Shown piece by piece: positions 34 to 60,240 of a DNA stretch of 64,000 bases. Source of the DNA: Orobanche coerulescens (lineage: Eukaryota > Streptophyta > Magnoliopsida > Lamiales > Orobanchaceae); NCBI GenBank assembly GCA_033398695.1, contig CM065804.1, forward strand, positions 54,219,501 to 54,283,500. Reading direction: 5' to 3'. The translations under genes and the position numbers were made by a program. The notes under the pieces are model-generated. The model had not been told where the DNA came from, searched no databases, and saw only the letters and a program-made list of their open reading frames with translations. How positions within the stretch are numbered: the stretch's first letter is position 1; every line of letters begins with the position of its first letter.

Positions 34-326
34 TTAGCGCGCGCTAGTCTCGCCAGAAGCGTGCGCTAACGGCCTCGACTTAATCAAGTCAAGATTTAGC
101 GTGCGCTACGCATATGCCTGTAGCGTGCGCTAAGGCGTTGACTTGGCTTTTCCCGAAAGCCGTCCAGGTTCATTCGACACAATCCGACAAGGGTCCCCCG
201 GCCAGGTCTCACCTACCGCACGTCTCAATCAATTTGACCACGCATAGCGTGCGCTAATGATCCCCTATAGCGTGCGCTATGAATCCCTGTTAGCGTACGC
301 TACACGCAGACTGTAGCGTGCGCTAC
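34..326. repeat. Array of near-palindromes TTAGCGTGCGCTAA, 23-bp period
   Basis: Eight 14-bp sites have centres at about 40.5, 62.5, 102.5, 126.5, 250.5, 273.5, 296.5 and 319.5. The last four are exactly 23 bp apart. Each site has inverted 6-bp arms (TTAGCG / CGCTAA, with small variation) around TG, CG or TA. The 9-bp spacers (tgatcccct, gaatccctg, acgcagact) are unrelated. The array fills the region just upstream of the TATA box on the minus strand. Confidence 0.9.
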
Positions 327-477
327 ATGCACAGAATTTCAATCTCTATATCACATATACGGAATTATACGCTCGACAACATCGGATTATGAAATACGGA
401 GAATAGTACTCAGACAAAAGTACAATCATTACAATATCACAAGTTCCAATTACATAACAGAAATCTCGGGTATTACA

Positions 478-1113
478 TTACGGGCGTATGAAACCTTCGT
501 CCAAACTGACCGGGCACCCTGCTCGAATCGTACGGCCGTAACTGGCCAAGCCTTACGGCCGTACCTGCCTCATCTTATGGCTGTATGCCGCAACCCTTAC
601 GGCCGTAAGCCCTCATCGTCCGACATGTCCTGAAAACCACAAACGCATGTTACGGCCGTAGCCTGCTTATCCTTACGGCCGTATCTCCCCCTAGACCAAA
701 CCATCCTTAAGCCAATGAATGCATGTTTCGGCCGTAACGCCTGATTAGTTACGGCCGTAACTCAATGCTGGAAGTGACAAAAATCCGACAACTCCGTGTT
801 CTCGTTACAAAAGGCGAATGATCCGACATACAAAACTCGTATGAATGTAATTAAGTCCACTAACATGGAATAGGTTATACTTCCAACACAGGACTACCAA
901 TCACGATGATTATGATAATACTCTCGTCTCGATTCTCAAAAGGATATGAATGATGATCGGTAACTGATACATGGCTAAATCACTCAAACGAAGAATACGA
1001 AAGAATGAATCATGAATGATGAGTGATTATTAATGAGTGAAAAAAATACCGAGTGGCAATTACTGACTGATAATTACTGAATGATAATGAATGAATTACA
1101 ACTAGGTATTACA
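478..1113 (-). mobile_element. Second gypsy-type LTR remnant (U3)
   Basis: On the minus strand this starts at 1113 with TGTAATACCTAG, a gypsy-like LTR start, and continues left to 478, where the neighbouring LTR begins. It carries its own array of a different palindrome (530-760). The part between 780 and 1113 is AT-rich with many tgaatga/gattat stretches and no reading frame. No TATA box is left, which would fit truncation just before it. Confidence 0.45.
530..760. repeat. Array of TTACGGCCGTAA palindromes, 22-23-bp period
   Basis: Eight 12-bp sites have centres at about 535.5, 558.5, 580.5, 602.5, 655.5, 678.5, 731.5 and 754.5. Steps are 23, 22, 22, 53, 23, 53 and 23. The consensus is a perfect palindrome; one site is degenerate (ttatggctgtat). 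Spacers of 10-11 bp are unrelated in sequence. The palindrome differs from that of the neighbouring LTR, but the centre spacing is the same. Confidence 0.9.
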
Positions 1114-6345: not shown

Positions 6346-6855
6346 CAAGGAGGGTTGATAAATTATGAGAGTGCATTGGATGACTTCGGTTGGAGCAAAT
6401 ATTATCCCTAGAAACCTGTTCGGTTGTCGAATAAGATCCAATTATGAAACTGACCAGCGTTGATGGTGTAAACTTAACTTGTTCATGAACTATAGAAACC
6501 ATATAGGTTGAGTGGAGGGAACAAGGGGAAAATGAAGATCGAATCATCCATTAGATATGTTTTTGCTGGACAACACTTTATAAATATTAATAGACCAGAA
6601 ACCTGTTCGGTTGCCCTCTATTAAAATTTATAAAGAACTCGATCACCACTATAAAGTAAAGCGAAAAAATACTTCCGGATTTCACAAGAGAGTGTGTCAT
6701 TCCGATAAAAAATATGCGAGTTGGGTTAAATTAATAGAGAAGTACTCAATTTTAAACTCAGACCATAATTAAACGAGTCACTAATCAATATGTCATACCT
6801 AATGCAGATAAACAAAATATCAACTCTCAAAATGACAACAAATAGAATTATCTTG
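6346..6855 (+). mobile_element. Copia leader (5' UTR) fragment in inverted orientation
   Basis: This stretch matches the leader of copia element I (about 24735-25190) on the plus strand. Shared strings include agtgcattggatgacttcgg, agaaacctg..aggttg, aaagaacttgatcaccact and aaacaagtcactaat. The pol fragment directly to its left reads on the minus strand, so leader and pol of the same family meet head to head. It contains no ORF. Confidence 0.7.
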
Positions 6856-6859
6856 CAGA

Positions 6860-8950
6860 CGATTCGTAGAAGGATTCTTCAAGATTGCTCAACCACTGAC
6901 TAGTTTGTTGAGAAAAGATAAGAAGTACACCTGGTCAGAGGCGTGTCAACAGAGCTTTGATGAGCTCAAGAGTCGATTGATATCGGCACTAGTTTTGGAA
7001 TTACCACAAGGAACTGAGGGATTCGTGGTGTATAATGATGCGTCAAGATAGGGTATTGGATGTGTGTTTATGCAGAATGAGAAGGTGATTGCCTATGCAT
7101 CGAGGCAATTATGACCTTATGAGGTCAATTACCCGACCCATGATCTGGAGTTAGAAGTTATGGTGTTTGATTTGAAAATCGGGCGCAATTACTTATATGG
7201 AGTCACTTGTCAGATTTTGCTGATCACAAGAGTCTTAGATATATTTTTACTCAGAAGGAGTTGAACATAAGACAGAGGACGTGGTTATAATTGATCAAAG
7301 ATTATGATAACGAGATCCTATGCCACCTAGGAAAGGTGAATGTGGTTGCTGATGCCTTGAGCCGTTAGACAGTATAGAAGCAAATACATGCCCATTTGAC
7401 AGTTCAGAATGTATTATAGCTAGAATTTGTGAGATCGGGGATTGATGTCTGGCTACAACGTGTACAAGGGAAACTTTGTACACTTGAGATTTCGTTGTCC
7501 CTTGATGATAATATCAGATCAAAGCATATTACGGACCCGTTGTTATTGCGAATCTAAAATGAATTAAATCAGAGGAAACCACTGGATTTGTGGTCCACAA
7601 GGATGTACTTGGGCATTTCAAGAATCAATTATGTGTACCGACAGATGAAGAGTTGAAAAACTCCATCCTAAGAGAGACCCATGCTACCTCGTACTCTGTT
7701 CATCCAGGATCTAACAAGACGTATAAGGACTTGAAATCCTATTACTGGTGAAAGCGAGAAGTTGCACAATTTGTTTCGAGGTGTTTAACTTTTCAACAAG
7801 TTAAGATTAAACATCAGCAACCGGTAAGTATGCCGAATCCACTCCCTATTCCAGAATGGAAATGGGAGGACATATCGGTGGATTTTATCACAAACTTGCC
7901 TACGAGTCATCGAGGTATGAATATGATTTGGGTGATTGTGGATTGTCTAACCAAATCAGCTCACTTCTTGGAGATCAAATACATGTGGAGTCCCGATGGA
8001 TTATCCCAGTTGTTCATTCAAGAGATCGTAAGATTGCACGAAACTCCCAAGAGTATCGGATCGGATCGTGACAGATGGATTGTGTCACATTTCTGGAAGG
8101 TGGTTCATCATGTGATGGGTACGTTGAATTTCAGTATGGTATTTCATCCACAGGTCGATGGCCAGTCTGAGAGGACCATCCAGACTTTGGAGGATATGCT
8201 GAGAGCTTGTTCTCTCGATTGGAAAGATGATTGGAAAGCCCAACTACCTTTGGTAGAGTTCACATACAATAATAGTTGGCATGCTTCAATTAAGATGGCA
8301 CCTTACTAACCGTTGTATGGCCATCTTTTCAGGTCACCATTGTGTGGGGAAGACTTGTCTGAGTATATGGATATGGAACCTGATATGTTTTTAGCGACTT
8401 GTGAAAAGATAGCTCGGATTAGGAGTCGTTTGTTAATGGCTCAGAGCTGGCAGAAGTCTTATGCAAATAACCGTTACTGACCACTTGAGTTCGAGATTGG
8501 TGAACATGTACCAGTTAAGGTGTCTCCTACCCGAGGCGTTTTTCATTTTGAAAAAAGAGGCAAGATGGGTCCAAGGTACATCCGACCATTTTAGATTATG
8601 GAACGAGTAAGCAATATGGCCTATCATTTGGCGTTGCCACTAGATTTAAGTCGAGTTCACAACGTGTTTCATGTTCCCCTATTGAGGAAGTATGTTGTTG
8701 ATCCTAGCCACAAACTTCACTTCAAAGAAATTGAGATAGCTGACGATCATTCATACGAGGTGTGTCCTATACGAATACTTTAGAGGACGATCAAACAGTT
8801 GAGAAACAAGACAATTCCCTCTGAAGATTCACTAGTCGAGACATGGAGTCTAGGAGGCTACATAGGAGACCGAGGATAGCATGCGGAAGAGATATCTCGA
8901 GTTATTTACCCCTTAGTTTCGAGGATGAAACTATTTTTACGGGGGGAGTA
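6860..8950 (+). pseudogene. pol: Ty3/gypsy chromovirus pol (RNase H, integrase, C-terminal domain), decayed
   Basis: The plus-strand frames give, in order: the end of RT and RNase H at 6860-7350 ([33 protein letters not shown]); the integrase zinc-binding region at about 7640-7800; the integrase core at 7830-8309 (WEDISVDFITNLP, a degraded second Asp region GSDRDRWIVSHFW, FHPQVDGQSERTIQTLEDML); and the GPF/chromo-side tail (GPRYIRPF, SRVHNVFHVPLLRKYV) to about 8780. In-frame stops occur in RNase H (after YNDASR), after KMAPY and after YANNRY. It ends with the chromovirus-type FRGRN/GEDE-like coda and a PPT at about 8939-8950 (ACGGGGGGAGTA). Gag, protease and most of RT are missing at the left junction (about 6855). 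Confidence 0.85.
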
Positions 8951-9192
8951 TGTAATATGCAGCTATAAATTCCCATTTTTATACTGTTGTATTGTATGTA
9001 TGATATGTGTATCATTGTTATACAATGTTTATTATATCGAGATATTTGGGAATAAAATCATTTATGTTCGACATTCGTATTGTTTTGACTGTTAGACGCT
9101 GAAGTTATGTTTTTATTTAAGTACATTAGACCTAGCGTATGCTACGGTCAGTGTCTAGCATACACTATATCGACAAGTCTTACGTACGTTGA
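8951..9192 (+). mobile_element. Start of the chromovirus 3' LTR, truncated
   Basis: Directly after the PPT the sequence starts TGTAATATGCAGC, the plus-strand equivalent of the other gypsy LTR starts. Only 242 bp remain before a new element begins at 9193. The last 60 bp hold three palindromic sites, so the cut falls in the region where the arrays of the other LTRs precede the TATA box. Confidence 0.7.
9132..9191. repeat. Truncated palindrome array in the chromovirus LTR
   Basis: Three sites, ctagcgtatgctac, ctagcatacactat and ttacgtacgttg, have centres at about 9138.5, 9161.5 and 9185.5 (steps 23 and 24). The array stops one base before the junction at 9193. Confidence 0.75.
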
Positions 9193-9727
9193 TGTTGGAA
9201 AAAATAATACCCCAAGTGTTTTGATAAATGCACCCTACAGCGCAATATCATACAACACCCAAAGAAGATAAATCCTATAGTTAAAACTTCAGAGTATAGC
9301 AAAAGAAGTCGTTGGTTATAGCAAACAATGTTGTAGGTGTTTTACTTAGGAAAAGTAGAATACAAAACCAACAGGATTGAGAATGAACTTTAAGTTGTTC
9401 AGAAATAATCTTTCCTTATTCATAAAGTATTCATGGTTTTAAAGTAGCATTTAGTGCTGACATGACAGCATTTAATACAGCCGAAGAGACTACAGATAGA
9501 AAAGTATTTAATTCGGATCAAAGAGAATATATGAAGTAGTACATGCGAGACATATTTAATTCAAACATTCTGAAGCTGCCAATCCGAGTTGTCTAAATCT
9601 CACCACCCGGCCAACGACAATATTTATAATGGATCTATTTCCAAGGTTATAAATAGCCCAAGAAATAGGACATTGCTCACACTTAGCAAACACATAAGAC
9701 AGACTGCTTACACAAGAGTTAGACTGA
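9193..9727 (+). mobile_element. LTR-like sequence, left part (split by the CACTA element)
   Basis: It begins TGTTGGAAAAAATAATACCCC, a typical LTR-like 5' end, and interrupts the gypsy LTR. A TATA box (TTATAAATAG) lies at 9647-9656, about 455 bp from the start, as expected for U3. There is no ORF. It continues at 19840-20098 on the other side of the CACTA element. The family is not recognised; a copia LTR or an endogenous pararetrovirus promoter are alternatives. Confidence 0.45.
9647..9656 (+). promoter_or_regulatory. TATA box of the LTR-like sequence
   Basis: The sequence ggTTATAAATAGccc on the plus strand is a canonical plant TATA box. The CACTA insertion 72 bp downstream separates it from its leader. 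Confidence 0.5.
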
Positions 9728-9753
9728 CACTACTATAAAAACAAGCAAAGAGA
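9728..9753 (+). repeat. CACTA left terminal inverted repeat
   Basis: It starts CACTACTATAAAAAC and matches the right end at 23 of 26 positions. It runs directly into AAGAGA sub-terminal motifs. Confidence 0.9.
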
Positions 9754-13352: not shown

Positions 13353-13353
13353 A

Positions 13354-19836: not shown

Positions 19837-19839
19837 TGA

Positions 19840-20669: not shown

Positions 20670-21045
20670 AAATCATTAGGAACTCATGTCCCAAGTTTGT
20701 CAAAAGCATTAGGAACTCACGTCCTAAGTTTGCTAAAATTTTTAGGAACTCATGTCCTAAGTTTGCCAAAATCATTAGGAACTCATGTCCTAATTTTATT
20801 AGAAACATTAGGAACTCACGTCCTAAGTTTATTAAACTCATTAGGAACTCATGTCCTAAGCTTGTCAAAATCATTAGGAACTCATGTCCTAAGTTCATTA
20901 AATTCATTAGGAACTCATGCCCTAAGATTATTAAACTCATTAGGAACTCATGTTCTAAGCTTGTCAAAATCATTAGGAACTCATGTCCTAAGTTTGTCAA
21001 AATCATTAGGAACTCATGTCCTAAGTTTGTCAAAATCTTTAGCAT
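20670..21045. repeat. 33-bp minisatellite in LTR A
   Basis: About 11 tandem copies of a 33-bp unit with core TTAGGAACTCATGTCCTAA followed by gtttgtcaaaatca. The core has inverted arms TTAGGA/TCCTAA. The long ORFs on both strands here are products of the 33-bp period (11 codons), not genes. LTR B carries the same array with about 9-10 copies. Confidence 0.92.
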
Positions 21046-21065
21046 TTAAAACGTGCTCATCATCC

Positions 21066-21500
21066 AATCATTCAATTAAGACAATTGTGAACTCTTGTCA
21101 CGTATACCAAACTCAACAATCACAGCACCGTGAACTCCTGTCACGTATACCAAACCCAACAATCACAACACTGTGAACTCCTGTCACGTATACCAAACAC
21201 ATCAATCAAAACACTCGTGATCTCTTGTCATGTGGCTCCATAAGTTCATCAACCCACACGGACTATGCCAATCACAATAATCATAACATCCAGTACTGAC
21301 TTCATGATCTCTTGCCATGAGTCACCATAGGCCCCGTCGTGCCCACACGGTTGGACGTACTTTGTCCTAGCCCCACGATCCCTTGCCATGTGTCGTCGTA
21401 GGCCTCGTCAGACCCGCACGATTGGACCTCAGCACCACATACTAAGTTCCGATCCCATGGTCCCCCGCCATGAATCCTCGTAGGTCCCGTCGAACCCGCA
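21066..21500. repeat. Further short tandem repeats in LTR A
   Basis: Three to four units of gtgaactc(c)tgtcacgtataccaaac-caacaatcac (about 43-45 bp, 21088-21215) are followed by about three units of roughly 80 bp built on gatc..ccatg..tcgtaggccccgtcg (21290-21500). No reading frame. Confidence 0.7.
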
Positions 21501-27196: not shown

Positions 27197-28472
27197 TGTT
27201 GTGGGAAAATCCCTCACAATATGCCGCAAGTGCACGGTGTCAACAAGTAATAAAGTGATAAGTAAAGTATCGTTCCCTCGAGGACTGATTTCACTAAGTA
27301 CCAAAATATAATCAACTCACAATTTTATTTGAAGAACAATTAAATAGAGTTTATATCTAAACTAATTGCAGAAAGTAAACAATAGTACTAATAATAATAA
27401 TAATACTAATAAGGGGTAGGATTATGATTTTCACCTCAAACAATCGGGATTGATATTTATTCGATTCAATTCACTGTTATTCAATTGATTGTAAGCCAGG
27501 AATTCCTAAATTATTCTAAAGCCTTTCCCAAGGTCGATAGAAAATACTACGAATTACTAACTCGATATATCCCTATTCGAATCAGATAATTAATAGCTAA
27601 AACAGTTCAAGAATTCCCACAATAACAGGCTTCACAATTCGCACGAGTATATTCCTATCTCACGAAAATTATGATTCGTCTAACAAGAACTATGCCTAAA
27701 TTTCATCTCCCGAATCCATAAAGACATTCAAAACAAATTAACTATTGGCCAAACAATTAAAAAGCATTAAGAACAGTAAGAAGAATCTTATTCAATAGAA
27801 TAACGAGTAAATCGAAATAATAATAAATAATCAAACCGCTTAAATCGGCCATGATCAAAATCCTACTCGAATAGATCTAAAAACTAAGATGCAGAAAAAC
27901 CGTAGGGATCCGTGGTCTTGTCGTCGCCCACAAATCTCCTCCTTGTGTTCTCCTTGATTTCTTCCCCCCGCCGATCCACACGGTTCTCCTAATTGTTGTG
28001 CCTTTTATATCATTTCTTTTTTTTCCTCCAGTAGGTTTCTTTTTCCAAGGAATTAAAATCCTCCTCCTTTTAGTGCTCCTCTCGGCACCAAAAAAGAAAA
28101 ACCAATGATTCTCCGGCCCAAAAGATGATGTGAAGACAATCAGCACACCCAAAAGCCCACATCCGCGGCCCAGTTATAAAATTCAGCACACTTGCTTTCT
28201 GTTACCGGTGGCGTCTTTTTTTTTTCTCCTGTGCCGCGGCTCACTTGGTGTCTTGGCCACAAGACACAAGATACTGATGTCTGCTGTCATTTGCTTCGTG
28301 TCTGCATGGCCCACGGCCAAAATTGCTTTTCGCCGTTTACTGCTTTTAGCTTCCGGACTCCAATCTCCTGACAAACATACAAAATTAAGGCATTAAGAGT
28401 TCATTTAAGCAAATTCACTCTAAAAAATAATACAAAATAATGATAAATAAGCGTATAAAAATACGCCTAACA
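27197..28472 (-). mobile_element. Element X 3' LTR (left copy, 1276 bp)
   Basis: TGTTGTGGGAAAATCCC ... ATACGCCTAACA on the plus strand. It is very similar to the right copy except for a block at about 28230-28330, where the two copies cannot be aligned base by base. The region 28485-28515, just internal, carries the purine-rich PPT on the minus strand. Confidence 0.9.
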
Positions 28473-30094
28473 AATACCCCCAAACTTGAGCCTTTGCTTG
28501 TCCTCAAGCAAAAAGAATTAAATTCAACAAAAGAATATCGTGAATAATCGTGCAATTCATAGTGCTCTACCTAATCAATACTATCCTGAAATTCTCTCTG
28601 AATAATACGAGTATCGTAATAGCGAGCTACACTCAGAACAATGATTCCGCAAAGTAACCAAGTTCAGTCCTAATCACTCGTTCATGAAGAAAATCCAGCT
28701 CAAAGATTAACAAACGTGAATCAAATCGACTGTCAATATGAAAAGTTAAAATAAACAAGCTAAATATGCCCCGTTCCACAGTCTAATGGAAAAATTTTCA
28801 CGAGTTTCATAATAATAATCCTCGGACAGTATTCCCTTATATATATATGCTCAAGAATTTGATTCGAGTTGACCACTAGGTTCGAATCTCGGGATGTTTC
28901 ATCGGGACAATCCTAGGGTGGTACTTTCATTCTCATGTATTGGGAAACCGTTTGACGTAAAAGTCACTCATGGGGCACATGGATACTTCTAGTTACTAAG
29001 TTCCCTTCTACAGCGGAGAAACAACTCGAATATATAATTCCCGCATGTCCGAGTCAAGGTCGATGTTTTACGCGAGAGTAAACAACGGGTCACGCGAATA
29101 CTCCCGGTTACTAGGCTTCCTATCATTGGCATATGCGAAAGTTCTAAATCACTAGTCTAATTAGGGTCGTCGTTTTACGCGAGAGTAAACAACGGGTCAC
29201 GTGAATACCCCCGATTACTAGACTTCCCCTCATAGAACAAGAATTATCTCGATTTTTGGGAAAAAAACTGACCGACTCTAAACTCAATCCCAGTGCCAAC
29301 CCGACTCATGAAATTGGACGACTAGCTAACCGAAAAGTGCAACCAAACGTATCGATGGTGATTTTAAAACACGTATGTATCCTCTCTTATCCGCTGAGAC
29401 TTCTACAATTACGAAAAATTTCGGACCTAATTGAGGACTTAGCAGAAACAGAAATTACTGACTACAACTCGACTAAAACTCGACCGTTTCTTCAGAGAGA
29501 AAAACAGTGTCGTAACATCAGTATTACACAAATAGAAGCACGAAAAATCCACGAAAAATTCATGTTTGCAAAAACCATCAACAGCATGCGAGAAAAATAA
29601 AGCAAGGATGAAATCGCAATTTATAATCAAGAAAAATTAAGAACATATCGCATGCTTCAATTTATTCCACTACACATAACATCATCAATAATAAAACTCA
29701 TGTGAAAATAAAAGAGATAAGGAAAAGTGAAACTTATTCCAAATGTCTTCTTGAAAGCCAGCACATGTCCGAGTGGAATCGACTGTCCATACGTCCAATA
29801 ACGCTCAACATCACGAGGGACCCCCCAAACTTAGTCTCTAGTCATGAAATAACAATAGACATTAAATCAAGCAAGACTAGAATATGAAGAATAATAACTC
29901 ATTGGGGTTATAAAAAGATTAGAGAAATAAGGGCCACAAGAATACACGAATCCAAACGAAATACAAAATAAAGAAAAGAAAATTATTAACGAAAAATCAA
30001 ATAAAAACAACTAACTAGAAAGCAAGTAAAAATGATGGGTTGCCTCCCATCCAGCGCTCTATTTTACGTCTTGAGCACGACGTGGCGAAAAAAT
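28473..30094 (-). other. Element X internal non-coding region
   Basis: It contains three loosely repeated units of about 108 bp (near 28960, 29060 and 29165), each with ttttacg(c)gagagtaaacaacgggtcacg or a diverged form followed by a cggttactaggcttcc-like phrase. The rest is A-rich, with no domain recognised. Near 30037 lies the conserved GGGTTGCCTCCCATCC box (minus GGATGGGAGGCAACCC). Confidence 0.6.
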
Positions 30095-30945: not shown

Positions 30946-32250
30946 TGTTGTGGGAAAATCCCTCACAATATGCCGCAAGTGCACGATATCAACAAGTAAT
31001 AAAGTGATAAGTAAAGTATCGTTCCCTCGAGGACTGATTTCACTAAGTACCAAAATATAATCAACTCACAATTTTATTTGAAGAACAATTAAATAGAGTT
31101 TATATCTAAACTAATTGCAGAAAGTAAATAATAGTACTAATAATAATAATACTAATAAGGGGTAGGATTATGATTTTCACCTCAAACAATCGGGAATGAT
31201 ATTTATTCGATTCAATTCACTGTTATTCAATTGATTGTAAGCCAGGAATTCCTAAATTATTCTAAAGCCTTTCCCAAGGTCGATAGAAAATACTACGAAT
31301 TACTAACTCGATATATCCCTATTCGAATCAGATAATTAATAGCTAAAACAGTTCAAGAATTCCCACAATAACAGGCTTCATAATTCGCATGAGTATATTC
31401 CTATCTCACGAAAATTATGATTCGTATAACAAGAACTATGCCTAAATTTCATCTCCGGAATCCATAAAGACATTCAAAACAAATTAACTGTTGGCCAGAC
31501 AATTAAAAAGCATTAAGAACAATAAGAAGAATCCAATTCAATAGAATAACGAGTAAATCGAAATAATAATAAATAATCAAACGTTCATGAAATTGGCTAC
31601 AATCAAAATTTTACTCGAATAGATCTAAAAACTAAGATGCAGAAAAACCGTAGGGATCCGTGGTCTTGTCGTCGCCCACAAATCTCCTCCTTGTGTTCTC
31701 CTTGATTTCTTCCCCCCGCCGATCCACACGGTTCTCCTAATTGCTGTGCCTTTTATATCATTTCTTTTTTTTTTTCCTCCAGTAGGTTTCTTTTTCCAAG
31801 GAAATAAAATCCTCCTCCTTTTAGTGCTCCTCTCGGAACCAAAAAAGAAAAACCAATGATTCTCTGGCCCAAAAGCTGATGTGAAGACAATCAGCACACC
31901 CAAAAGCCCACATCCGCAACCCAGTTATAAAATTCAGCACACTTGCTTTCTATTACCGGTGGCGTCTTTTTTTTTCTCCTGTGCCGCGACTCACTTGGTG
32001 TGTGCCGCGGCACACAGTACAGTGTGCACAACGTTCGCTGGTTGTCTTCGTGTGCCGCGGCCCACTTGCCTTGTGCCGCGGCCCACAGCCAAATTTCGCC
32101 GTTTTCGCCCGTTTCGCCTCGTTTTAGCTTCCGGACTCCAATTTCCTGACAAACATACAAAATTAAGGCATTAAGAGTTCATTTAAGCAAATTCACTCTC
32201 CAAAATAATACAAAATAATGATAAATAAGCGTATAAAAATACGCCTAACA
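30946..32250 (-). mobile_element. Element X 5' LTR (right copy, 1305 bp)
   Basis: Same ends as the left copy. Between about 31990 and 32110 it has four GTGCCGCGG motifs, including the palindrome GTGCCGCGGCAC, absent from the left copy. The PBS lies immediately left of 30946. Confidence 0.9.
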
Positions 32251-42546: not shown

Positions 42547-42612
42547 TATAGAGTGAGAGTCTAATATAGATCTGGTTCGTAAAAAAAATGAACCAACCTC
42601 TCTGATACCACT

Positions 42613-45353: not shown

Positions 45354-45406
45354 AGAACATGGGTATTGGATACCATGATATGTGGCATTGAGTGCAAGTG
45401 GGAGAT

Positions 45407-47257: not shown

Positions 47258-47262
47258 ACGTG

Positions 47263-47947: not shown

Positions 47948-48913
47948 TTGGATGTAACACCCCCAGATTTAACCGGAAATATTACAGCGCCGTGGGCCCC
48001 GAGATGGAACCCACAAGGCTAAAAAGAAATTTTCACAAACATTTACAAATGCCCAAGAGGCCAACGACGGTACTAACTTTAAAAATTCACAAAGACTTAT
48101 AAAATCCATTTATCAAAACCGTCGTAAAACTCATTTGAAATCGCAAGGCCAAAGCAGTGATACTCAAAAGTTTAGAAAACGATTTCCAAAGTAACCTCGG
48201 TTACGAGATACCAAAAGAGCGTCTCAAAATACTCACGCGGCGGAAAAGACCAACCAAAGCGATACTCTAGCGGCGGAAAACAAGAACCAATCAAGAAACT
48301 CAATCTACGTAACATGTCCTAGCCGGTATCCTCAGAAGCTCATCTCTTCACGACCGCTACAAGCTCGATACTCGAGAACCTAAAAAGAAATCCACGAATG
48401 GTCACCATAATATCCAACAATGATAACCGTCACATCACATTAATAATAACATACCAATGAGAATACAACATAAGAATACGACCAACGTAATCTTTACTTA
48501 CTCAAGAAATTCTCATCAGAATAACCATTATCACATTTCACATCCTGTACTCAATTAACCAATAAACTCGAACATAATATCTGTATTGTACCTTAAACAA
48601 TACTCAAGATCCTCAAACTATCATAACCAACTCACGATACGGAAATCTACCATTTCTGACCAATACGATCCATCGAATAATATCATCAAATCCCAAGACG
48701 ATAACCGATCGTCCATCAAAGACAAAGACCAAAGAAAATACGGAACATACCTCGAGATATGATGTGCCACGATAATCATATCAGTCTAATCCGAGATCAG
48801 ATCAATGTAATACGGACAAGGTCCTAACACAAGACCTACAAATGCATACTCATATGACAACGTCAATATGCTCAAAAACAATAACAACTATGTATACTCA
48901 ATGGAAATCCCAT

Positions 48914-49203
48914 GATCCAGCGCCCTCAGCATAGATCCCAAGATGATCCTACAAGATCAACACGAGGTGGATAACCAACAATATACATATGCACAACAAT
49001 AACACAATACTGGGTAATCCAACGATCCGGCGCCCTCAGCATAGATCCCAAGATGATCCCGTCGGACCAACACGAGGTGGAAAAACCCGTCCAATGATCC
49101 AGCGCCCTCAGCATAGATCCCAAGATGATCCCGTCGGACCAACACGAGGTGGACATCCGATCCAGCGCCCTCAGCATAGATCGCGCGATCCCATCGGATC
49201 AAC
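48914..49203. repeat. Four repeats of about 57 bp in the LARD LTR
   Basis: Units begin GATCCAGCGCCCTCAGCATAG and end caacacgaggtgg, separated by unrelated linkers (about 52, 15 and 6 bp). The right LTR has the same set at 54971-55259, and a diverged version in opposite orientation lies at 63890-63990. ORFs here on both strands follow the repeats. Confidence 0.88.
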
Positions 49204-49993
49204 ACAACATAAACAACACAATATGCATACGCATATGCAAAACAATATGTTCATCATCATGAACAACGCAACATGAACGACAATATGACAAATCAATTAA
49301 GACGACCTCATGTTCGACAACATGAATGATAATACGCATGATCAAATCACTAACTCTAATTGAATCAATATAAGATACTTGCCCCGAGTCCTTCGGAGAA
49401 ATCTCGATGTCCAATCATCACCGATGATTATCCTCAATGCTCGGCGATCCAAACGAACAATAAACTATAGATACTCATATCCTCGTCTTTACCATAATGT
49501 AACCTTGATACTCGAACATACCAATAATCGAGATAAGCATATACATTATGATTTATCTCCCAGAATCGAAAGAACGATATGCGATCCGAATACCCGAGTT
49601 CACAATAATAATCATCGCTATATGCATTATGAGCGAAATGAAATCAAACCATTCATTAAATATTATAACCGAGCAAGTAATAACTTGCCTCGATACCGAT
49701 ACGACGAAGTCGCTATCAACACCTTGCCTTTGTCTACGAGCTCCTCACCCCGATCAAAAGCAATACAATGGACATACTCGAACGCGACCGCAATATCCGG
49801 TTATAATCACCGATCAACAATCTCAACCTATCGAAGAAATCAAATAACACATATCCGATAACAATCAAGAATCGACAAACTAACCAATCGAACTCAACGG
49901 TTCAACACAACCTCGAATAAGCACAAGAACCAACCAAGTCAAACCATCACGAATTCCTAATCAAAACACAAAAATACCGCCTCGCCTGCCTAC

Positions 49994-50077
49994 TTAGCGC
50001 ACGTTAAACGCATAACGTAGCGTGCGCTAAGTTTCTCCCGTTAGCGCGCGCTAGGCAGTAAACGTAGCGTGCGCTAA
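49994..50077. repeat. Downstream palindrome array, left LARD LTR
   Basis: Four 14-bp sites with centres at 50000.5, 50023.5, 50047.5 and 50070.5 (steps 23, 24, 23). It lies in the transcribed part, about 0.7-0.8 kb beyond the TATA box. The same four are at 56057-56140 in the right LTR. Confidence 0.9.
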
Positions 50078-50788
50078 TGCTGTGTAGTGGCATGCATTTC
50101 AAGCATCGTCTAACACTTCCATCATGACAATGATCAACTCATCTCGAGATTAAGGATTTCATAACAATCATGACATATAATTTAATAGCTTTTCAAGAAC
50201 ACGAATTATCCAAATTCACGTTCATGATCTATAAAATGATAAAATCCGATGTGTTCTAACATCTAAAAATCCTTATTCATCATGTTCTTCGACATACAAT
50301 TCATATAACTTCAAGAATCACAGTAGCATCACCATAATCGTTACCATACGAAGTAACCAACGACAAAACATCAAAAATCCGAATTGAAGAAGGGAATTAC
50401 ATTAACATATATCTTGAATTCCATCCAAAACCATACGAAACATATCAATACTCATATATTGATAGCAACATTAACTTAGTACGGTAATCCAACTCGTTGT
50501 CATGCTCATCAACTTGTTTATATGATAATCATCAACTCAAGAACATCATATACAATCCAAAACGAAATCTCAAAGTGAAGAGTAATTACCTTTTTTTGAA
50601 GGAAAGGATTGATTTCCAAGAATCACCAATGATTTCAAGAACAAAGCTTCACTCCATGATTTCCATCTTTAATCTTGTTAAAGAGGATCATCCCTCAGTG
50701 TTTAGGAACTCCAAATGTTCTCCCAAGGTTGTCTCTATCGGGTGAAAGGAAAGAAATGGACGAAATGTTTCATGACACCCGTTTGTCC

Positions 50789-50798
50789 CTTTATATAG
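50789..50798 (-). promoter_or_regulatory. TATA box, left LARD LTR
   Basis: Minus strand CTATATAAAG, ten bases from the first palindrome. It is identical to the box in the right LTR at 56851-56860. Confidence 0.75.
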
Positions 50799-50807
50799 AA
50801 TGCACCA

Positions 50808-51297
50808 CTAGCGTGCGCTAAACCCTTATGTTTAGCGTGCGCTAGCCTTAGCGTGCGCTAACTGACTTTGTTAGCGTGCGCTATCGCATCGCGATCGAGG
50901 CTACCGTCTTGCTTCGTAAACTACCTTACGTACGTAATGCCCATGCATTAACGTCGTAAATCATCATGTCTAGCGTCGCAAGTCCTTACTCTTAGCGTGC
51001 GCTATCCGAAGTTGACTTACTACGGTGTTCACCTACCACTCGCCCCACATTCCGAAAGACATCGGCAAGGATAAGATTCCTTGTTGGTGATACATAGTTA
51101 GCGTGCGCTAAGCTAATATTTTAGCGTGCGCTAATACTTCGAGGACAACAACCGTTGACTTACGAACGTGCGCGGCGGCCGGGTCCACACGCAGATTCCT
51201 TCCGATGCATGCGCACTAGCGTCGCTAACCTATAAACGTAACGTCGCTAATCACCTTGCGATAGCGTGCGTTATGCATGAATATCGGCGTGCGCTAA
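50808..51297. repeat. Upstream palindrome array, left LARD LTR
   Basis: The same array as 56870-57359, but several sites have lost two bases (for example acgtcgtaa for acgtacgtaa, agcgtcgctaac for agcgtacgctaac), which breaks the dyad. Confidence 0.85.
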
Positions 51298-51600
51298 TAA
51301 GGCTATACTTAGCCATTTTCCGCGATTCTTGTCCAACGTCTCGACATACCAAAAGCGGACATAAGACACCGAACACAAACACCGAATCAATAATATCATC
51401 ATACGATATACCCAATATCAAAAGTACGACAACGATACACAATATCCTCAAATGTAATTGTCGACCAAATACGACAATTATACCGATATCGATATCTCGA
51501 GTCCTTTATTTATTTTATCTCTCTGCATGCATTCCACGCTGTACAATATAACTCGGATAAAATAATATTAAACACCGATAGTAGAAATTCGGATATTACA

Positions 51601-54010
51601 TTCTACACCCCTTAAAATAAGTTTCGTCCTCGAAACTTGCAATCCATCATAAAGCGAACAAACATACCGTTCAACTCAAAATATCCCAAAACCATCACGA
51701 CAACGATTAATCATCATCATTACCGAATATCCAAAAGAGCATACTTACAAGTATGCGGTCGACGATCTCTGAGATACTAGCAAGCGATCTCACATGCATC
51801 TCAATACGCTTACGATCACAATTCCACGAGTCTCAACAAAATATATCATCTTCGGATGAAACAATCCGCCGAATCAAATCACATGCCTGATTACATAATC
51901 AAGTCCCAATTAGATAAGACGAATAATACACAACACATCTACAAAACAATTGCCCAAAACAACGACACGAATCCGAAACATTAACACAAAATCCGAGCGC
52001 TCAGATGATCACCAACAATGATCAACAATCAATCGAATTTATCATCGACATGATAAATTCCAATATGACCAACCAGAGGTCAAAACCCAATCGAGAATAT
52101 CATCAACGTGATAAACTCCAATATTACCAACGAACGATCAACGACAATCGAGAATACCTTCACACGGTAAACTCCAACACGATCAACACAGAACCACGAG
52201 AAGCGTATATATGAAAGAATAACATTCTCAAAACGTCAAATCAATCACGCCGTAGATCTCAATAAACATACCCAGTAGCGAACATTTCCCTCGGCATACG
52301 AACAACGAGTCGCAAATCGACGAACATACCAATTCATACAAGGAGTGGGAACGACCACTCAATATCCAAAACAACCAGCATGGGGTCACCATCCCCATAT
52401 TTACACTTACAAAGAAATCATTCAAAGATCACTATGGTAAGATTACGCTACTACCGCACCAATGGAATCACGTAGCACCTATGTCCCTGTTTTACAAAGT
52501 CCAAAGTTCAAAAAATTACATACGTGCGATTCTACAAAATGCGGTATAATTCTCTTGGTGATCAATCCATTGATCACCCATGGATAGCCAATCTACCATA
52601 CTAAACTTGAATCTCTTTCGCCATTACCATCTTGATGTACCATCCGATTCGTGAGTCTCATTCGAACTTCACCACGATATGCATTATGCACTAAATGCGT
52701 ATGTACCTCGATCACATTTTCAAAACCAGTTTGAAATCATATATTCTTGTCACGAAGACAATTTTCGAAAGTTCTTTCAAAAATTTCAAAACTAAAAACA
52801 TAAATTTTGGTAAGATCACATAATCAATTTTAAAAATTAAATCGGCTCGCTGGTGCCAAGTTCTCGATAAAAATTCTTTTCGAATATACACGATTAAATA
52901 AAATGAATTTTATGCAAATGCTTGTCCATATCCATACCCCTGTATACCACTTCGGCTCGTCACCAATATCCACTGATATTCCATCGGAAAACCACACGAT
53001 AGAGTTCCAAATCTCAAATATAAACTCCGACTAAAAACTCCTTTCCACATATGACTCGCAACGTCAGTCATTAACCCATACTGGATCACCTTAAATATGA
53101 TATGACAAAATATTGAAACGAATCAATACAATAAAGACTTCCCGAGAAGTTCCATTTGAACAAGTAAACCAAAGCCTCGAAAGGCGGATAAAGTATTTTA
53201 CAACTCTCGGGAGTTTTTGAAAACAGGAAAGTCTTTTGAAACATTAGGGTCTCAGCCCGTATCTTGTTCCGCAATACAAGAAGTTTAAAAAGTAGGAAAC
53301 TCTTTTCGGACCCCAAGTCCTGAGTTATAAAACCATTTCAAATCGATTGGGTCTCGGCCCAAAAATCATTTTCCGTAAAACATCCGTAAAACATTCATTT
53401 TGAAAGGTATCATTTTCAAATGATCAAAAGCAGTTCATGAATTAACATGTCACATGTTCTTCTCAACCATGCACAATATTTTCTCCCAGATGCACAATTC
53501 CGTTCTAAAATCTAACCAACATACTGATTTACAAAAATCGTGGTTTCTCAAGATCATCAATCCTGTCCCACTCTGACATCTCATACTGTAACGCATGATA
53601 TCTGCTGAATCTCAAGACACATCAACTATAGAACAACAATAAATCTCAATGCAATTCAAAAATCCAAATACTTACAGATCGTGAAGCCGACGATTCCCCG
53701 TGATACTGGCACATGTCTAGACTCAAGAAAATACTCGACATAGGTATTTCAAAACACACGTTTTGCAAACTCAGTTCGACTCAAGAACACAATACATCTC
53801 ATTCCAGAGAATCTCGTTAACACCATTTGGAAAAGTTATAACAAGCCCAGTACGATACTGGCAAATCCGATAACGCGAAAGCCTGAGTGAACAACAAAGA
53901 CTCACGGCTCTAGTATTTTTCAATCGACAACTCGAATGACGCAACAAAAACACGACTCAACTCGACCCGAATGCCTAGGTTTTCTCAACCTAAGCTCCGA
54001 TACCATATTC
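51601..54010 (-). other. LARD internal region, non-coding
   Basis: 51601-51640: PPT and remnant of a chromovirus pol end. 52010-52190: three loose repeats of about 57 bp with tatcatc-acgtgataaa-ctccaata and internal dyads. 53090-53340: short phrases gggtctc(a/g)gccc repeated. 53994-54005: PBS. No gag, protease, RT or integrase motif was found in any frame. Confidence 0.75.
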
Positions 54011-56056
54011 TGTAACACCCCGCATTTAACCGGAATATTACAGCCGTGGCCCCGAGATGGAACCCACAAGGCTAAAAAGAAATTTTCACAAACATTTACA
54101 AATGCCCAAGAGGCCAACGATTACTAACTTTAAAAATTCACAAAGACTTATAAAATCCATTTATCAAAAACCGTCGTAAAACTCATTTGAAATCGCAAGG
54201 CCAAACAGTGATACTCAAAAGTTTAGAAAACGATTTCCAAAGTAACCTCGTTACCGGATACCAAAAGAGCGTCTCAAAATACTCACGCAATGGAAAAGAC
54301 CAACCAAAACGATACTCTAGCAAATGGAAAACAAGAACCAATCAAGAAACTCAATGTACAGAACATGTCCTAGCCAGTATCCTCCGGGAAGCTCATCTCT
54401 TCACGACCGCTACAAGCTCGATACTCCGAGAACCTAAAAAGAAATCCCACGACGGGGTCAGCCATAATATCCAACAATGATAACCGTCACATCACATTAA
54501 TAATAACATACCAATGAGAATACAACATAAGAATACGACCAACGTAATCTTTACTTACTCAAGAAATTCTCATCAGAATAACCATTATCACATTTCACAT
54601 CCTGTACTCAATTAACCAATAAACTCGAACATAATATCTGTATTGTACCTTAAACAATACTCAAGATCCTCAAACTATCATAACCAACTCACGATACGTA
54701 AATCTACCATTTCTGACCAATACGATCCATCGAATAATATCATCAAATCCCAAGACGATAACCGATCGTCCATCAAAGACAAAGACCAAAGAAAATACGG
54801 AACATACCTCGAGATATGATGTGCCACGATAATCATATCAGTCTAATCCGAGATCAGATCAATGTAATACGGACAAGGTCCTAACACAAGACCTACAAAT
54901 GCATACTCATATGACAACGTCAATATGCTCAAAAACAATAACAACTATGTATACTCAATGGAAATCCCATGATCCAGCGCCCTCAGCATAGATCCCAAGA
55001 TGATCCTACAAGATCAACACGAGGTGGATAACCAACAATATACATATGCACAACAATAACACAATACTGGGTAATCCAACGATCCAGCGCCCTCAGCATA
55101 GATCCCAAGATGATCCCGTCGGACCAACACGAGGTGGAAAACCCGTCCAATGATCCAGCGCCCTCAGCATAGATCCCAAGATGATCCCGTCGGACCAACA
55201 CGAGGTGGACATCCGATCCAGCGCCCTCAGCATAGATCGCGCGATCCCATCGGATCAACACAACATAAACAACACAATATGCATACGCATATGCAAAACA
55301 ATATGTTCATCATCATGAACAACGCAACATGAACGACAATATGACAAATCAATTAAGACGACCTCATGTTCGACAACATGAATGATAATACGCATGATCA
55401 AATCACTAACTCTAATTGAATCAATATAAGATACTTGCCCCGAGTCCTTCGGGAGAAATCTCGATGTCCAATCATCACCGATGATTATCCTCAATGCTCG
55501 GCGATCCAAACGAACAATAAACTATAGATACTCATATCCTCGTCTTTACCATAATGTAACCTTGATACTCGAACATACCAATAACCGAGATAAGCATATA
55601 CATTATGATTTATCTCCCAGAATCGAAAGAACGATATGCGATCCGAATACCCAGAGTTCACAATAATAATCATCGCTATATGCATTATGAACGAAATGAA
55701 ACTGAAACCATTCATTAAATATTATAACTGAGCAAGTAATAACTTGCCTCGATACCGATACGACGAAGTCGCTATCAACACCTTGCCTTTGTCTACGAGC
55801 TCCTCAGCCCCGATCAAAAGCAATACAATGGACATACTCGAACGCGACCGCAATATCCGGTTATAATCACCGATCAACAATCTCAACCTATCGAAGAAAT
55901 CAAATAACACATATCCGATAACAATCAAGAATCGACAAACTAACCAATCGAACTCAACGGTTCAACACAACCTCGAATAAGCACAGTCAGAACCAACCAA
56001 GTCAAACCATCACGAATTCCTAATCAAAACACAAAAATACTGCACTGCCTGCCTAC

Positions 56057-56140
56057 TTAGCGCACGTTAAACGCATAACGTAGCGTGCGCTAAGTTTCTC
56101 CCGTTAGCGCGCGCTAGGCAGTAAACGTAGCGTGCGCTAA
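56057..56140. repeat. Downstream palindrome array, right LARD LTR
   Basis: Four sites (ttagcgcacgttaa, gtagcgtgcgctaa, ttagcgcgcgctag, gtagcgtgcgctaa) with the same 23-24-bp steps as in the left copy. Confidence 0.9.
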
Positions 56141-56850
56141 TGCTGTGTAGTGGCATGCATTTCAAGCATCGTCTAACACTTCCATCATGACAATGATCAA
56201 CTCATCTCGAGATTAAGGATTTCATAACAATCATGACATATAATTTAATAGCTCTTCAAGAACACGAATTATCCAAATTCACGTTCATGATCCATAAAAT
56301 GATAAAATCCGATGTGTTCTAACATCTAAAAATCCTTATTCATCATGTTCTTCGACATACAATTCATATAACTTCAAGAATCACAGTAGCATCACCATAA
56401 TCGTTACCATACGAAGTAACCAACGACAAAACATCAAAAATCCGAATTGAAGAAGGGAATTACATTAACATATATCTTGAATTCCATCCAAAACCATACG
56501 AAACATATCAATACTCATATATTGATAGCAACATTAACTTAGTACGGTAATCCAACTCGTTGTCATGCTCATCAACTTGTTTATATGATAATCATCAACT
56601 CAAGAACATCATATACAATCCAAAACGAAATCTCAAAGTGAAGAGTAATTACCTATGTTGAAGGAAATGATTGAAATTCAAGAATCACCAATGATTTCAA
56701 GAACAAAGCTTCACTCCATGATTTCCATCTTTAATCTTGTTAAAGAGGATCATCCCTCAGTGTTTAGGAACTCCAAATGTTCTCCCAAGGTTGTCTCTAT
56801 CGGGTGAAAGGAAAGAAATGGACGAAATGTTTCATGACACCCGTTTGTCC

Positions 56851-56860
56851 CTTTATATAG
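56851..56860 (-). promoter_or_regulatory. TATA box, right LARD LTR
   Basis: Minus strand CTATATAAAG. The palindrome array begins ten bases upstream of it. Transcription would run toward lower coordinates into the internal region. Confidence 0.75.
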
Positions 56861-56869
56861 AATGCACCA

Positions 56870-57359
56870 CTAGCGTGCGCTAAACCCTTATGTTTAGCGT
56901 GCGCTAGCCTTAGCGTGCGCTAACTGACTTTGTTAGCGTGCGCTATCGCAGTCCAGAGGCTACCGTCTTGCTTCGTAAACTACCTTACGTACGTAATGCC
57001 CATGCATTAACGTACGTAAATCATCATGTCTAGCGTACGCAAGTCCTTACTCTTAGCGTGCGCTATCCGAAGTTGACTTACTACAGTGTTCACCTACCAC
57101 TCGCCCCACATTCCGACAAAGATCCGCAAGGATAAGATTCCTTGTTGATCGATACATAGTTAGCGTGCTAAGCCTAATATTTTAGCGTGCGCTAATACTT
57201 CGTGACAACAACCGTTGACTTACGAGCGTGCGCCGAAGCAATGGTCCACACGCAGATTCCTTCCGATCTGTCTGCACTAGCGTACGCTAACCTATAAACG
57301 TAACGTGCGCTAATTTTGCACGATAGCGTGCGTTATGCATGAATATCAGCGTGCGCTAA
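56870..57359. repeat. Upstream palindrome array, right LARD LTR
   Basis: About 15 sites. Centres at 56990.5, 57013.5, 57036.5 and 57059.5, and again at 57283.5, 57306.5, 57329.5 and 57352.5, are exactly 23 bp apart. Others are at 56876.5, 56900.5, 56916.5, 56939.5, 57166, 57188.5 and 57229.5. Sites mix TTAGCGTGCGCTAA, TAGCGTACGCTA and TTACGTACGTAA forms. Spacers in the last run (cctataaac, ttttgcacg, gcatgaata) are unrelated. Confidence 0.92.
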
Positions 57360-57772
57360 TAAGGCTATACTTAGCCATTTTCCGCAGTTCTTGTCCAACG
57401 TCTCGACATACCAAAAGCGGACATAAGACACACTGAACACAAACACTGAATCCAATAATATCATCATACGATATACCCAATATCAAAAGTACGACAACCT
57501 GATACACAATATCCTCAAATGTAATTGTCGACCAAATACGACAATTATACCGATACTGATATCTCAGTCCTTTATTTATTTTATCTCTACTGTACAGATT
57601 CCACGCTGTACAATATAACTCGGATAAAATAATATTAAACACCAGTAGTAGAAATTCCGGATATTACATTGGATGGAGCAAAAAACGACCAAAGAACCCA
57701 ACCCTGATCACCCTCGTCTCAAACCTGCGGAGAGAAGAAGAAATGAAGAAGAAATGAGGAAATAAACCTGTT

Positions 57773-57794
57773 GTCCAGTATATATATACTGGAC
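57773..57794 (-). promoter_or_regulatory. TATA box inside a 22-bp perfect palindrome
   Basis: The core CCAGTATATATATACTGG extends by two more paired bases on each side (57773-57794). Its centre (57783.5) is 21 bp from the first array palindrome (57804.5), so the TATA box itself continues the series. Confidence 0.7.
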
Positions 57795-57797
57795 AGC

Positions 57798-58161
57798 TTA
57801 GCGTGCGCTAATCATCCGTATTAGCGTGCGCTATCAAAGCACGTTCTGACCAAACACACGATTAGAATGCGCTAACTACAAGACTTAGCGTGCGCTAACG
57901 AATCACGCAACCTAGTCGAGTAGCTCCTGGACTTCCCCCGAACTACCAGTTAGCATGTGCTACCCTCCCGATAGCGTGCGCTAACTCTAGCACCGTAACG
58001 CGTGCTATCCTCACTACATAGCATGCGCTATCAACTTCCTAGCCCATGGCAGTAGCTTCTGCCTCACCTTTGGATCCTCCGTTAGCGTGCGCTAATGGAG
58101 CCTTAGCGTGCGCTAGCAATGCATAGTAGCATGCGCTATCCAAGTACCTAACGTGCGATAT
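57798..58161. repeat. Palindrome array of LTR A
   Basis: Twelve 14-bp sites with centres at about 57804.5, 57827.5, 57868.5, 57891.5, 57956.5, 57977.5, 58000.5, 58024.5, 58088.5, 58109.5, 58132.5 and 58154.5. Steps are 23, 41, 23, 65, 21, 23, 24, 64, 21, 23 and 22. Some sites are diverged (ttagaatgcgctaa, ctaacgtgcgatat). Spacers are unrelated. Confidence 0.92.
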
Positions 58162-58388
58162 TCCTGCTGTACAGGCAATAGGACCGCACCAAAGACTCAG
58201 CACAATAACGATACCTGGCAATGGAACGACAAATCATGCGACATGCAATAAAACCCCAACATCCACAGCAACAACCAGGTTACCAACAAACACGTGACGC
58301 GACCTGACACACGATCAATTTAAACATGAACAACATATAAAACACTAAAAATTCACCGCAATCGAAAACGAAAATCCGGGGTATTATA

Positions 58389-60240
58389 TTTTACCATACT
58401 AAAAATCAGTTTCGTCCCGAAACTTAAACCAAAAGCATCATGATGCTACACAACAAAACACAAACGTTCAAACATCAAGTGAACCCCTGATCTCCTGTCG
58501 CGTGTCTCCGTAGGTTCAACAACCCAAACAGAAATATTCACACCAAACATCAAGTATCAATATCAAATCTCATCACGAGATACCATCCACAAAATAAAAC
58601 ACAAAAATACCATCACTGGGCACCACTAGGCCCTCCAGGAGTAGGAACGGAATTCCGATCCCCGAACATCTTAGCAGCGGTATCGCTATGCACCGCTCAG
58701 TGTCCCGCTTGACCACACTTGAAACAATTCACTTGAGTGAATGACAATCCTGCCGTACATGGCCTACACGACTGTAGTTGAAACACGTCTTCACACCGCT
58801 CACCTTACTCATGATTACGACCACGACCACAACCTCGACCTTGTCTCCTCGTCATGCCGAACATGCAATCACTAAATACAACGAAATGTAACGTCGTAGA
58901 GCAACGTACTAAGATGCCAACTCAGCACAACACATCACAAATCAATATGGCGAAATGCCCACTCAGCATAACATACCAACGCAAGGCAACAATTATCAAC
59001 CAGACAAAACTATCCACTCCGGGTAATTACACGAATACAAGAACTATCATTGCAACAGATGGAACTTACAATCGTAAACGAATTACAAGACCGCATCAAC
59101 AGAAAACTTACGACCATTCCCGATACGACCAGGGACGTAACAACTACACATCATTATAACCAATCACTGACCACATTCTTTTTAAAACTCCACGAGATAT
59201 TCATTTAAATAATAACATTTGGAATTCATTGAATTCATATATTTTTTCGAAGTAAAATTTGAAAATACTTTTAATACCTCGGGCTGTTTTACCAAAACCA
59301 TAACCCATAGATCGCAACAGTCTCGTTTTGAAATCATTTGCAAAATAATACTCCAGAACATCATCCGGAGTACATCATATTATTTGAAAAAGGCATCATC
59401 ACAAACGTCAACACACCTGGTAATCACCTATTACCACTCAACATCATCACAATCAACAACACATAAGGTAATCACATGTTACCATTCAACATCATTAATC
59501 AACAGCACATAAGGTAATCACATGTTACCACTCAACATCATCACAATCAATAGCTCATAAGGTAATCACATGTTACCACTCAACATCTTCACAATCAACA
59601 ACACATAAGTTATCCCGTGGTTATGCTCTCTTGGCATCGACCCCCAGAGGTTTCACCGAACCACCCGGGTGGGCAACCTATTTATATATACAACAGAAAT
59701 TCCTACAAATCAACAATCATGTCTAACTCAACATAATGCATCTTAATGCGTGCTAAAGCTACACTTAGCATGCGTTAACTATCCAGCCAGGTTAGCGTGC
59801 ACCAAGCCGCACGTTAGCGTGGACTAACTGGCACAATCCAGTAAATAGATTCATTAGTTTAACAAACACAACCGATTCTAAAACACATGTTCATCCTGCA
59901 TTCAAATCTACCAGATTAACAAACATAAATTACAAACACCGGTTCGAGAACATATCGAAACCATCAATTCTTCCCGTGAGCATCTTTGATCATTACACAC
60001 GTAATGCATCACACGCACCAAATACGAACGTCATTCACAACAACTTGTGACAAAGTCAATATACATAAATTACAATAGAGGAGACTTACATCACAGATCG
60101 CACGAAGATGACAGCCACCCATGATACTAATCTTCTCTTGTCATCCGACAACTTCAAGTGACGGAATAAAACACAACTCAGCTCAACTCAACTCGAACCG
60201 ACAACCTAGGTTTCCTTAACTTAAACTCTGATACCATAAA
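58389..60240 (-). pseudogene. gag: Internal region of gypsy element A/B with a gag zinc-knuckle remnant
   Basis: Only 1.85 kb lies between LTR A and LTR B. On the minus strand near 58860-58680 there is a basic RQGRGCGRGR stretch. Two degraded CCHC knuckles follow, CFNYSRVGHVRQDC (second Cys lost) and, in another frame, CFKCGQAGH. This points to a chromovirus gag. The rest has no pol. 59400-59620 holds four repeats of about 58 bp (aaggtaatcacatgttaccactcaacatc, with dyad GGTAATCACATGTTACC). The PBS TGGTATCAGAGTTTAA is at about 60221-60236. The element is an internally deleted derivative. Confidence 0.7.
59743..59827. repeat. Small palindrome cluster in the A/B internal region
   Basis: Four sites (ttaatgcgtgctaa, ttagcatgcgttaa, ttagcgtgcaccaa, ttagcgtggactaa) with centres at 59749.5, 59771.5, 59798.5 and 59820.5, steps 22, 27 and 22. 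Most are imperfect dyads. Confidence 0.75.

Follow-up and report, generated by a model that had tools for sequence, protein, structure and literature searches.

The DNA considered here is one 64-kb stretch from Orobanche coerulescens (the window), and the analysis covers all arrays of a 12-bp, CpG-containing dyad in it. The window is a nest of long terminal repeat (LTR) elements whose nearest named protein relatives are from plants. Arrays lie in the unique 3′ (U3) parts of a partial LTR at the window edge (E1), of a large retrotransposon derivative (LARD) and of an apparently broken chromovirus-type LTR (E3), with further ones beside E1 (E0) and in the U3 of a decayed Ty3 element (E2; Table 1). 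Sites with at least 7 of the 10 arm letters were listed for seven non-redundant regions (E1, E0, E2, LARD U3, LARD cluster, E3 U3 and E3 internal cluster), giving 53 sites. The second LARD LTR (13 + 4 sites), being a copy of the first, was excluded; a single E0 site at 478, outside the listed regions, enters only the flank and folding tests and the blastn masking test.

The dyad arrays are real and far beyond chance. Exact TWRCGNNCGYWA occurs 44 times in the 64 kb, compared to a mean of 0.39 and a maximum of 2 in 100 shuffles, and a motif-free scan for recurring near-palindromic 10-mers returned 26 seeds against at most one in each of 100 shuffles; 23 of these seeds are the dyads themselves and the remaining three lie at 24037, 32003 and 59472. 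The array coordinates of the initial annotation were correct to within one base. The arrays behind its five LTR contexts are likewise present, though one LTR pair (LARD) had been counted twice and the LTR context of 530–760 can only be presumed, since this stretch borders on the E1 LTR tip at 477 and shows no TATA box of its own. No relatives of the arrays came up in viral contigs, either in two pattern scans or in one protein-alignment scan. A pattern scan of genome contigs gave one match, in Aurantiacibacter xanthus, where two TAGCGCACGCTA sites stand 22 bp apart with shared flanks (L001 396–429); this pair is due to chance or is a bacterial operator, and we take it as chance.

Neighbouring sites keep a regular pitch. 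Gaps of 22–24 bp account for 31 of the 46 in the seven arrays where 3.95 were expected, and 20 gaps are of exactly 23 bp against 1.3 expected, statistics that are conditional on array regions picked beforehand. Taken array by array, the 22–24 bp excess has P ≤ 0.0001 in E1, E0, LARD U3 and E3 U3, is less marked in the LARD cluster (0.0098) and in the internal cluster of E3 (0.032), and does not reach significance for the three sites of E2 (0.077). All 12 sites of the E3 array lie near a 21.9-bp lattice (R 0.96), which its long gaps also fit (P 0.016) and which is about two helical turns; the earlier remark that a 23-bp pitch is some 2.2 turns, so that the sites do not share one face, must therefore be qualified for E3.

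The DNA between the sites shows no such regularity, the twenty 11-bp spacers having a mean identity of 26.5% compared to 25.4 ± 0.9% when shuffled, and the dyads 73%. Replication slippage or another passive tandem expansion would account for same-way repeats of one 12-mer, and true tandem repeats do occur elsewhere in these LTRs. However, tandem duplication was rejected because the spacers are no more alike than shuffled ones, and the same 12-mer stands in otherwise unrelated U3s, so that we consider such an origin very improbable. The true tandem repeats, of 33 and 43 bp, lie inside the E3 LTRs (20670–21230 and 60811–61339) and contrast with the dyad arrays.

The U3s were compared by pairwise blastn (matches at E ≤ 0.05), with and without the dyads masked. 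Unmasked, there were 36 matches for E1/LARD, 31 for E1/E3 and 34 for LARD/E3, and with the dyads masked there were none in any pair. A control mask of the 12 bp following each dyad left 9, 6 and 2 matches, respectively, and 20 random masks of equal size left 5 to 28 per pair, never zero (in this control the E cut-off was set inside blastn, so the unmasked counts were 35, 31 and 30). As masking the dyads abolishes the matches and the control masks do not, it is the sites, and not their surroundings, that are common to the families, and this is our main result. E0 and E2 had no match at E ≤ 0.05 to the other U3s even unmasked, so that what they share with them is core and pitch alone. The long gaps of the LARD (57066–57182) and E1 (133–244) arrays both hold GTTGACTT, CACCTACC and CCGACAA in differing order, and these words might be separate factor sites.

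Where the promoter is intact, the array had been described as lying directly upstream of the TATA box. This holds in the three LTR families with a promoter in view, and more tightly than claimed: TATAWA starts 24 bp (E1), 23 bp (LARD) and 22 bp (E3) after the last dyad start, i.e. one further array step, while TA runs give extra starts at 25 bp in LARD and at 24 and 26 bp in E3. The joint chance of these distances in three families is about 1e-4, for a test thought of post hoc, after the data had been seen. In E3, a perfect palindrome of 24 bp, TGTCCAGTATATATATACTGGACA, is centred on the TATA box. Position also bears on an insulator or boundary role like that of the Su(Hw) site cluster in Drosophila gypsy. 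The density is similar, with 12 sites in 340 bp in gypsy (passages of PMC2374998) and 12 in 362 bp in E3, but the gypsy sites are in the 5′ untranslated region and in AT-rich DNA, whereas the main arrays here keep a constant step upstream of the TATA box (small clusters lie downstream), and we think such a role unlikely.

Table 1. Elements, promoter landmarks and dyad arrays in the 64-kb window
Feature	Positions	Strand	Remarks
E1 partial LTR	1..477	-	U3 tip TGTAATACCC at 477; truncated by window edge; from the sequence
E1 TATA box TATAAA	17..22	-	24 bp from last dyad start
E1 U3 array	35..325	-	8 sites TAGCGNNCGCTA; gaps 22, 40, 24, 124, 23, 23, 23
E0 array	478..760	not assigned	core TTACGGCCGTAA; 8 sites from 530 and one at 478-489; LTR context presumed
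E2, start of 3′ LTR of decayed Ty3 element	8951..9192	+	pol remnants upstream at 6842-8960
E2 array remnant	9133..9191	+	3 decayed dyads; gaps 23 and 24
Third dyad core GTGCCGCGGCAC	31981..32084	- (presumed from leader)	4 sites; gaps 21, 50, 21
LARD, LTR element without recognised pol	47953..57668	-	target duplication TTGGA at 47948-47952 and 57669-57673
LARD 3′ LTR	47953..51600	-	
LARD 3′ LTR, counterpart of second cluster	49995..50076	-	4 sites
LARD 3′ LTR TATA box	50792..50797	-	likewise 23 bp from last dyad start
LARD 3′ LTR U3 array	50809..51296	-	13 sites
LARD 5′ LTR	54011..57668	-	96.7% identical to 3′ LTR
LARD 5′ LTR second dyad cluster	56058..56139	-	about 720 bp downstream of TATA box; 4 sites; gaps 23, 24, 23
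LARD 5′ LTR TATA box	56854..56859	-	23 bp from last dyad start
LARD 5′ LTR U3 array	56871..57358	-	14 sites including TTACGTACGTAA
E3, first part of chromovirus-type 3′ LTR	57669..58388	-	apparently broken by LARD (map)
E3 TATA box	57783..57788	-	within 24-bp palindrome 57772-57795; 22 bp from last dyad start
E3 U3 array	57799..58160	-	12 sites on 21.9-bp lattice
E3 weak internal cluster	59744..59826	-	4 decayed sites (7-8 of 10 arm letters); gaps 22, 27, 22

Ty3-type pol with integrase was seen in E2 only, where fragments matched RT_RNaseH_2, Integrase_H2C2 and SH3_Tf2-1 (Pfam). Its 185-aa integrase piece is 55–68% identical to 14 aligned Ty3 proteins, the named ones being from plants (Dionaea 63%), and had no Pfam match at 0.001; when short pieces were checked for a chromodomain (E ≤ 0.1), 8595–8780 matched SH3_Tf2-1 only and 8784–8876 had no match. 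The longest stop-free piece of the LARD internal region is 83 aa, and seven pieces from it gave no Pfam match; neither LARD nor E3 yielded a recognised pol, and E1 and E0 are cut off. The best copia matches are at 58–59%. TG..CA LTRs with a tRNA-iMet-type primer site are a signature of Ty3/gypsy chromoviruses (Tekay/Del-like), and this fits the LARD ends (tip TGTAATATCC, end GTGTTACA, then TGGTATCGGAGC downstream), the E1 tip and also E3, where both LTR ends are mutated (TATAATA, GTGTTATA) and TGGTATCAGAG lies downstream. From the repeat map, LARD and a further large insertion appear to divide the 3′ LTR of E3. The LTR carrying the third core, GTGCCGCGGCAC, adjoins at its other end a GGCGCC leader that is presumably Athila/Tat-like, and the companion LTR (27197–28479) retains one site. 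Two apparent insertions lie directly at a dyad, the E1 tip being beside TTACGGGCGTAT (477–490) and a TGTTGG.. LTR-like start following right after TTACGTACGTTG (9180–9200), perhaps reflecting insertion into open promoter DNA.

The sites had been called perfect or near dyads, but their centres show that most are oriented near-dyads rather than perfect ones. On the + strand the 53 centre dinucleotides are TG 31, TA 8, GC 8, CG 4, CA 1 and AG 1, so that the commonest sense-strand form is TAGCGCACGCTA. Random deamination of a CG centre would yield TG and CA equally, but the observed TG:CA ratio is 31:1 (E1 6:0, LARD 11:1, E3 14:0), though shared descent of sites within a family means that this does not represent 32 independent events. 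Changes at CpG positions are C>T or G>A in 16 of 18 cases, as past cytosine methylation would leave them, compared to 12 transitions among 23 changes at other arm positions. In E3, 10 of 120 arm letters are changed and the LTR pieces are 88–91% identical, a comparison suggesting arrays that were almost perfect when inserted and have since evolved neutrally. The dyad may extend to 14 bp, as the bases immediately flanking it are complementary in 44% of cases against 29% when shuffled (P 0.007); complementarity also appears at offset 5 (P 0.008), with nothing at offsets 2, 3 and 4.

Symmetric sites of this kind could also act as RNA or as cruciforms, with hairpins between neighbouring dyads serving, for example, dimerisation, packaging or small interfering RNA production. 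The raw folding energy of the LARD array is well below that of dinucleotide shuffles (z -4.95 sense, -9.2 antisense), and when dyads are kept and only the spacers shuffled the antisense strand of LARD stays unusually stable, with 1 of 60 shuffles as good, and those of E1 and E3 tend in that direction (5 of 60 each), which G-U pairing of the TG centres does not explain, since the shuffles keep the dyads. However, the sense strand in the same comparison is not clearly unusual (6 of 60 shuffles as good in LARD, 16 in E1 and 16 in E3), E0, whose sense strand is not assigned, is unremarkable on both strands (25 and 37 of 60), there is no covariation between neighbours (P 0.25) and a sense-strand CA centre is unable to pair with itself. 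A structural role thus seems to us highly doubtful.

A different concern is that the dyads might arise from base calling, with methylated CHG misread as CG. The differences between the two LARD LTRs are clustered, and they look like base-calling error at methylated CHG rather than mutation; sequence errors in the window are likely. The 3′ LTR has 28 CAG/CTG words against 52 in the 5′ LTR and is richer in CG (210 against 185), and CWG is confined to the 5′ LTR in 21 of 56 differing groups and to the 3′ LTR in 2, with the 5′ LTR itself low in CWG (0.64 observed/expected). Yet the same dyads occur in E1, E0 and E3, where CWG is ordinary (0.81, 0.88 and 0.93; window 0.81), and hence they were not made by base-calling error, an origin to which we give almost no weight. 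Between the two LARD arrays, 10 of the 168 columns within dyads and 35 of the 320 within spacers differ, counts that we do not use as evidence of selection because base-calling error blurs them.

The sites, their pitch and single orientation, the unrelated spacers, the sharing among three otherwise unmatched U3s and, in these three families, the TATA box one pitch downstream are all observed in the DNA. We consider it reasonably probable, on sequence grounds, that the U3 arrays of the oriented 12-bp CpG dyad, mostly at 22–24 bp pitch, are sites for copies of a trans-acting, probably host-encoded activator of the adjacent TATA promoter, which would be excluded by CpG methylation. Proteins bound side by side on the array are predicted to activate the neighbouring promoter, units about two helical turns apart presumably cooperating and leaving the next slot to the TATA-binding protein. 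Methylation of the dyads would shut the protein out and is a likely off-switch; the CpG content and the decay of the sites suggest that methylation matters. Selection on active master copies may have kept each site while the spacers drifted, with sites decaying in dead copies, and several Ty3-type families, including LARD with no recognised pol, would use one factor. The initial annotation had proposed a regulatory platform, and regular multi-site arrays adjoining TATA boxes and common to otherwise unmatched U3s agree with this; a plain homodimer on symmetric sites is weakened by the 31:1 orientation of the near-dyad centre.

Several observations weigh against a shared activator. A homodimer should not need an oriented centre, and changes within the dyads are one-sided, with 37 in one arm and 2 in both (one of the 2 complementary), which gives no hint that the arms are selected as pairs within a family. 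The long gaps are off the lattice in E1, LARD and E0 (P 0.38, 0.69 and 0.48), and LARD also has dyad sites some 720 bp downstream of its TATA box, as E3 has in its interior. For the E0 core TTACGGCCGTAA and for the third one, GTGCCGCGGCAC, the factor would have to be tolerant, or else a different one would be required. Masking, moreover, chops the arrays into short pieces, so weak spacer similarity could escape blastn, though the direct spacer comparison agrees with the masking result.

As to the protein itself, a host transcription factor seems roughly twice as likely as an element-encoded one; no element-encoded factor was seen, with only small pieces of the internal regions searchable. To our knowledge, the dyad matches none of the NAC, SPL, FHY3/FAR1, CAMTA, VOZ or LBD motifs. 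CGTGCG, the core of the brassinosteroid-response element (BRRE), is present in 24 of the 53 sites on the + strand and 25 on either strand, these being the sites that have a TG centre and two intact CpGs, and is absent from TA-, CG- and GC-centred sites. Passages of PMC3343102 give BRRE as CGTGT/CG and describe CGTGCG as shifted by BZR1 in rice, making a BZR1-type protein a candidate, if a weak lead.

The arrays could instead be an anti-silencing platform, on which a protein of an autonomous relative binds and strips off DNA methylation, in the manner of VANC at VANDAL elements. VANDALs are DNA transposons, which counts against this, as do the single core common to families with unrelated U3s and the lack of any candidate gene noticed in the window; no autonomous copy is in view there. 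As no pol was recognised in LARD, any such factor would act there in trans. Differing cores (TAGCG, TTACG, and GTGCCGCGGC in another lineage) would fit co-diversification, and VANC motifs differ between related elements in the account given in parts of PMC5735166. The parallel with VANC drawn in the initial annotation thus keeps its force for repeated motifs that differ between families and is weakened as to mechanism, VANC targets being tandem repeats (same parts of PMC5735166) and the spacers here unrelated, and we hold anti-silencing to be a minor possibility.

Were a shared activator indeed the explanation, a single trans factor would govern several retrotransposon families at once, and methylation would switch that control directly, through the many CpGs in the sites. 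The dyads, pitch, one-way centres and TATA distance amount to exact predictions for binding and promoter tests, with a motif that can be counted in any plant genome. A bolder and much more speculative version is a retroelement-wide operator code, in which unrelated LTR families of one plant would have arrived by convergence at one polar dyad, and stay in register with it, at 22–24 bp pitch running into the TATA box. The dyad would be read by a factor that forms filaments and is blocked by methylation, while families with a changed core (TTACGG, GTGCCGCGG) would be breaking away to private factor/site pairs.

The open-licence literature searched yielded no description of arrays like these, and the known systems resemble them in part. 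The subterminal repeats of En/Spm are repeated 12-bp sites bound by a protein, TNPA, though in a DNA transposon. We know of no site array at the mouse IAP elements bound by CREB1. According to the abstract of PMC9729108, CREB1 activates IAP elements when methylation is absent, through methylation-sensitive binding, so that a CpG-containing site (CRE) in a retroelement promoter is common to both, though in an animal; it illustrates in principle how methylation might act on the arrays. The EBNA1-binding stretch of the Epstein-Barr virus (EBV) promoter Qp includes the identical 12-mer TAGCGTGCGCTA (in part of PMC2921154), a match of chance or convergence with no kinship claimed, which by analogy indicates that a region bound by protein can harbour a near-dyad like this one. 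VANDAL elements of Arabidopsis likewise carry repeated short motifs in noncoding transposon DNA that vary between related elements, but, as sections of PMC5735166 and PMC10398659 have it, as true tandem repeats in an element with its own VANC gene.

Nearest in kind are the Su(Hw) cluster of gypsy and the BII boxes of Tnt1. Tnt1 is a Ty1/copia element, and so of another superfamily than the arrays here. The gypsy cluster of Drosophila has 12 sites of a 12-bp motif in a retroelement (passages of PMC2374998), as here, but in the 5′ untranslated region rather than U3, with AT-rich flanks, a zinc-finger insulator protein and sites that are not CpG dyads. The BII boxes are several copies of a short motif in a tobacco LTR promoter that can be methylated and silenced, and are said in portions of PMC3316501 to bind defence-induced factors. 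Here too a short site recurs in U3, upstream of the TATA box, with factor binding as a prediction, but the motif is another one, with CpG dyads, 8–14 sites, unrelated spacers, several families and the TATA box one pitch away. Repeated U3 sites are thus a known idea, of which the BII boxes are the example.

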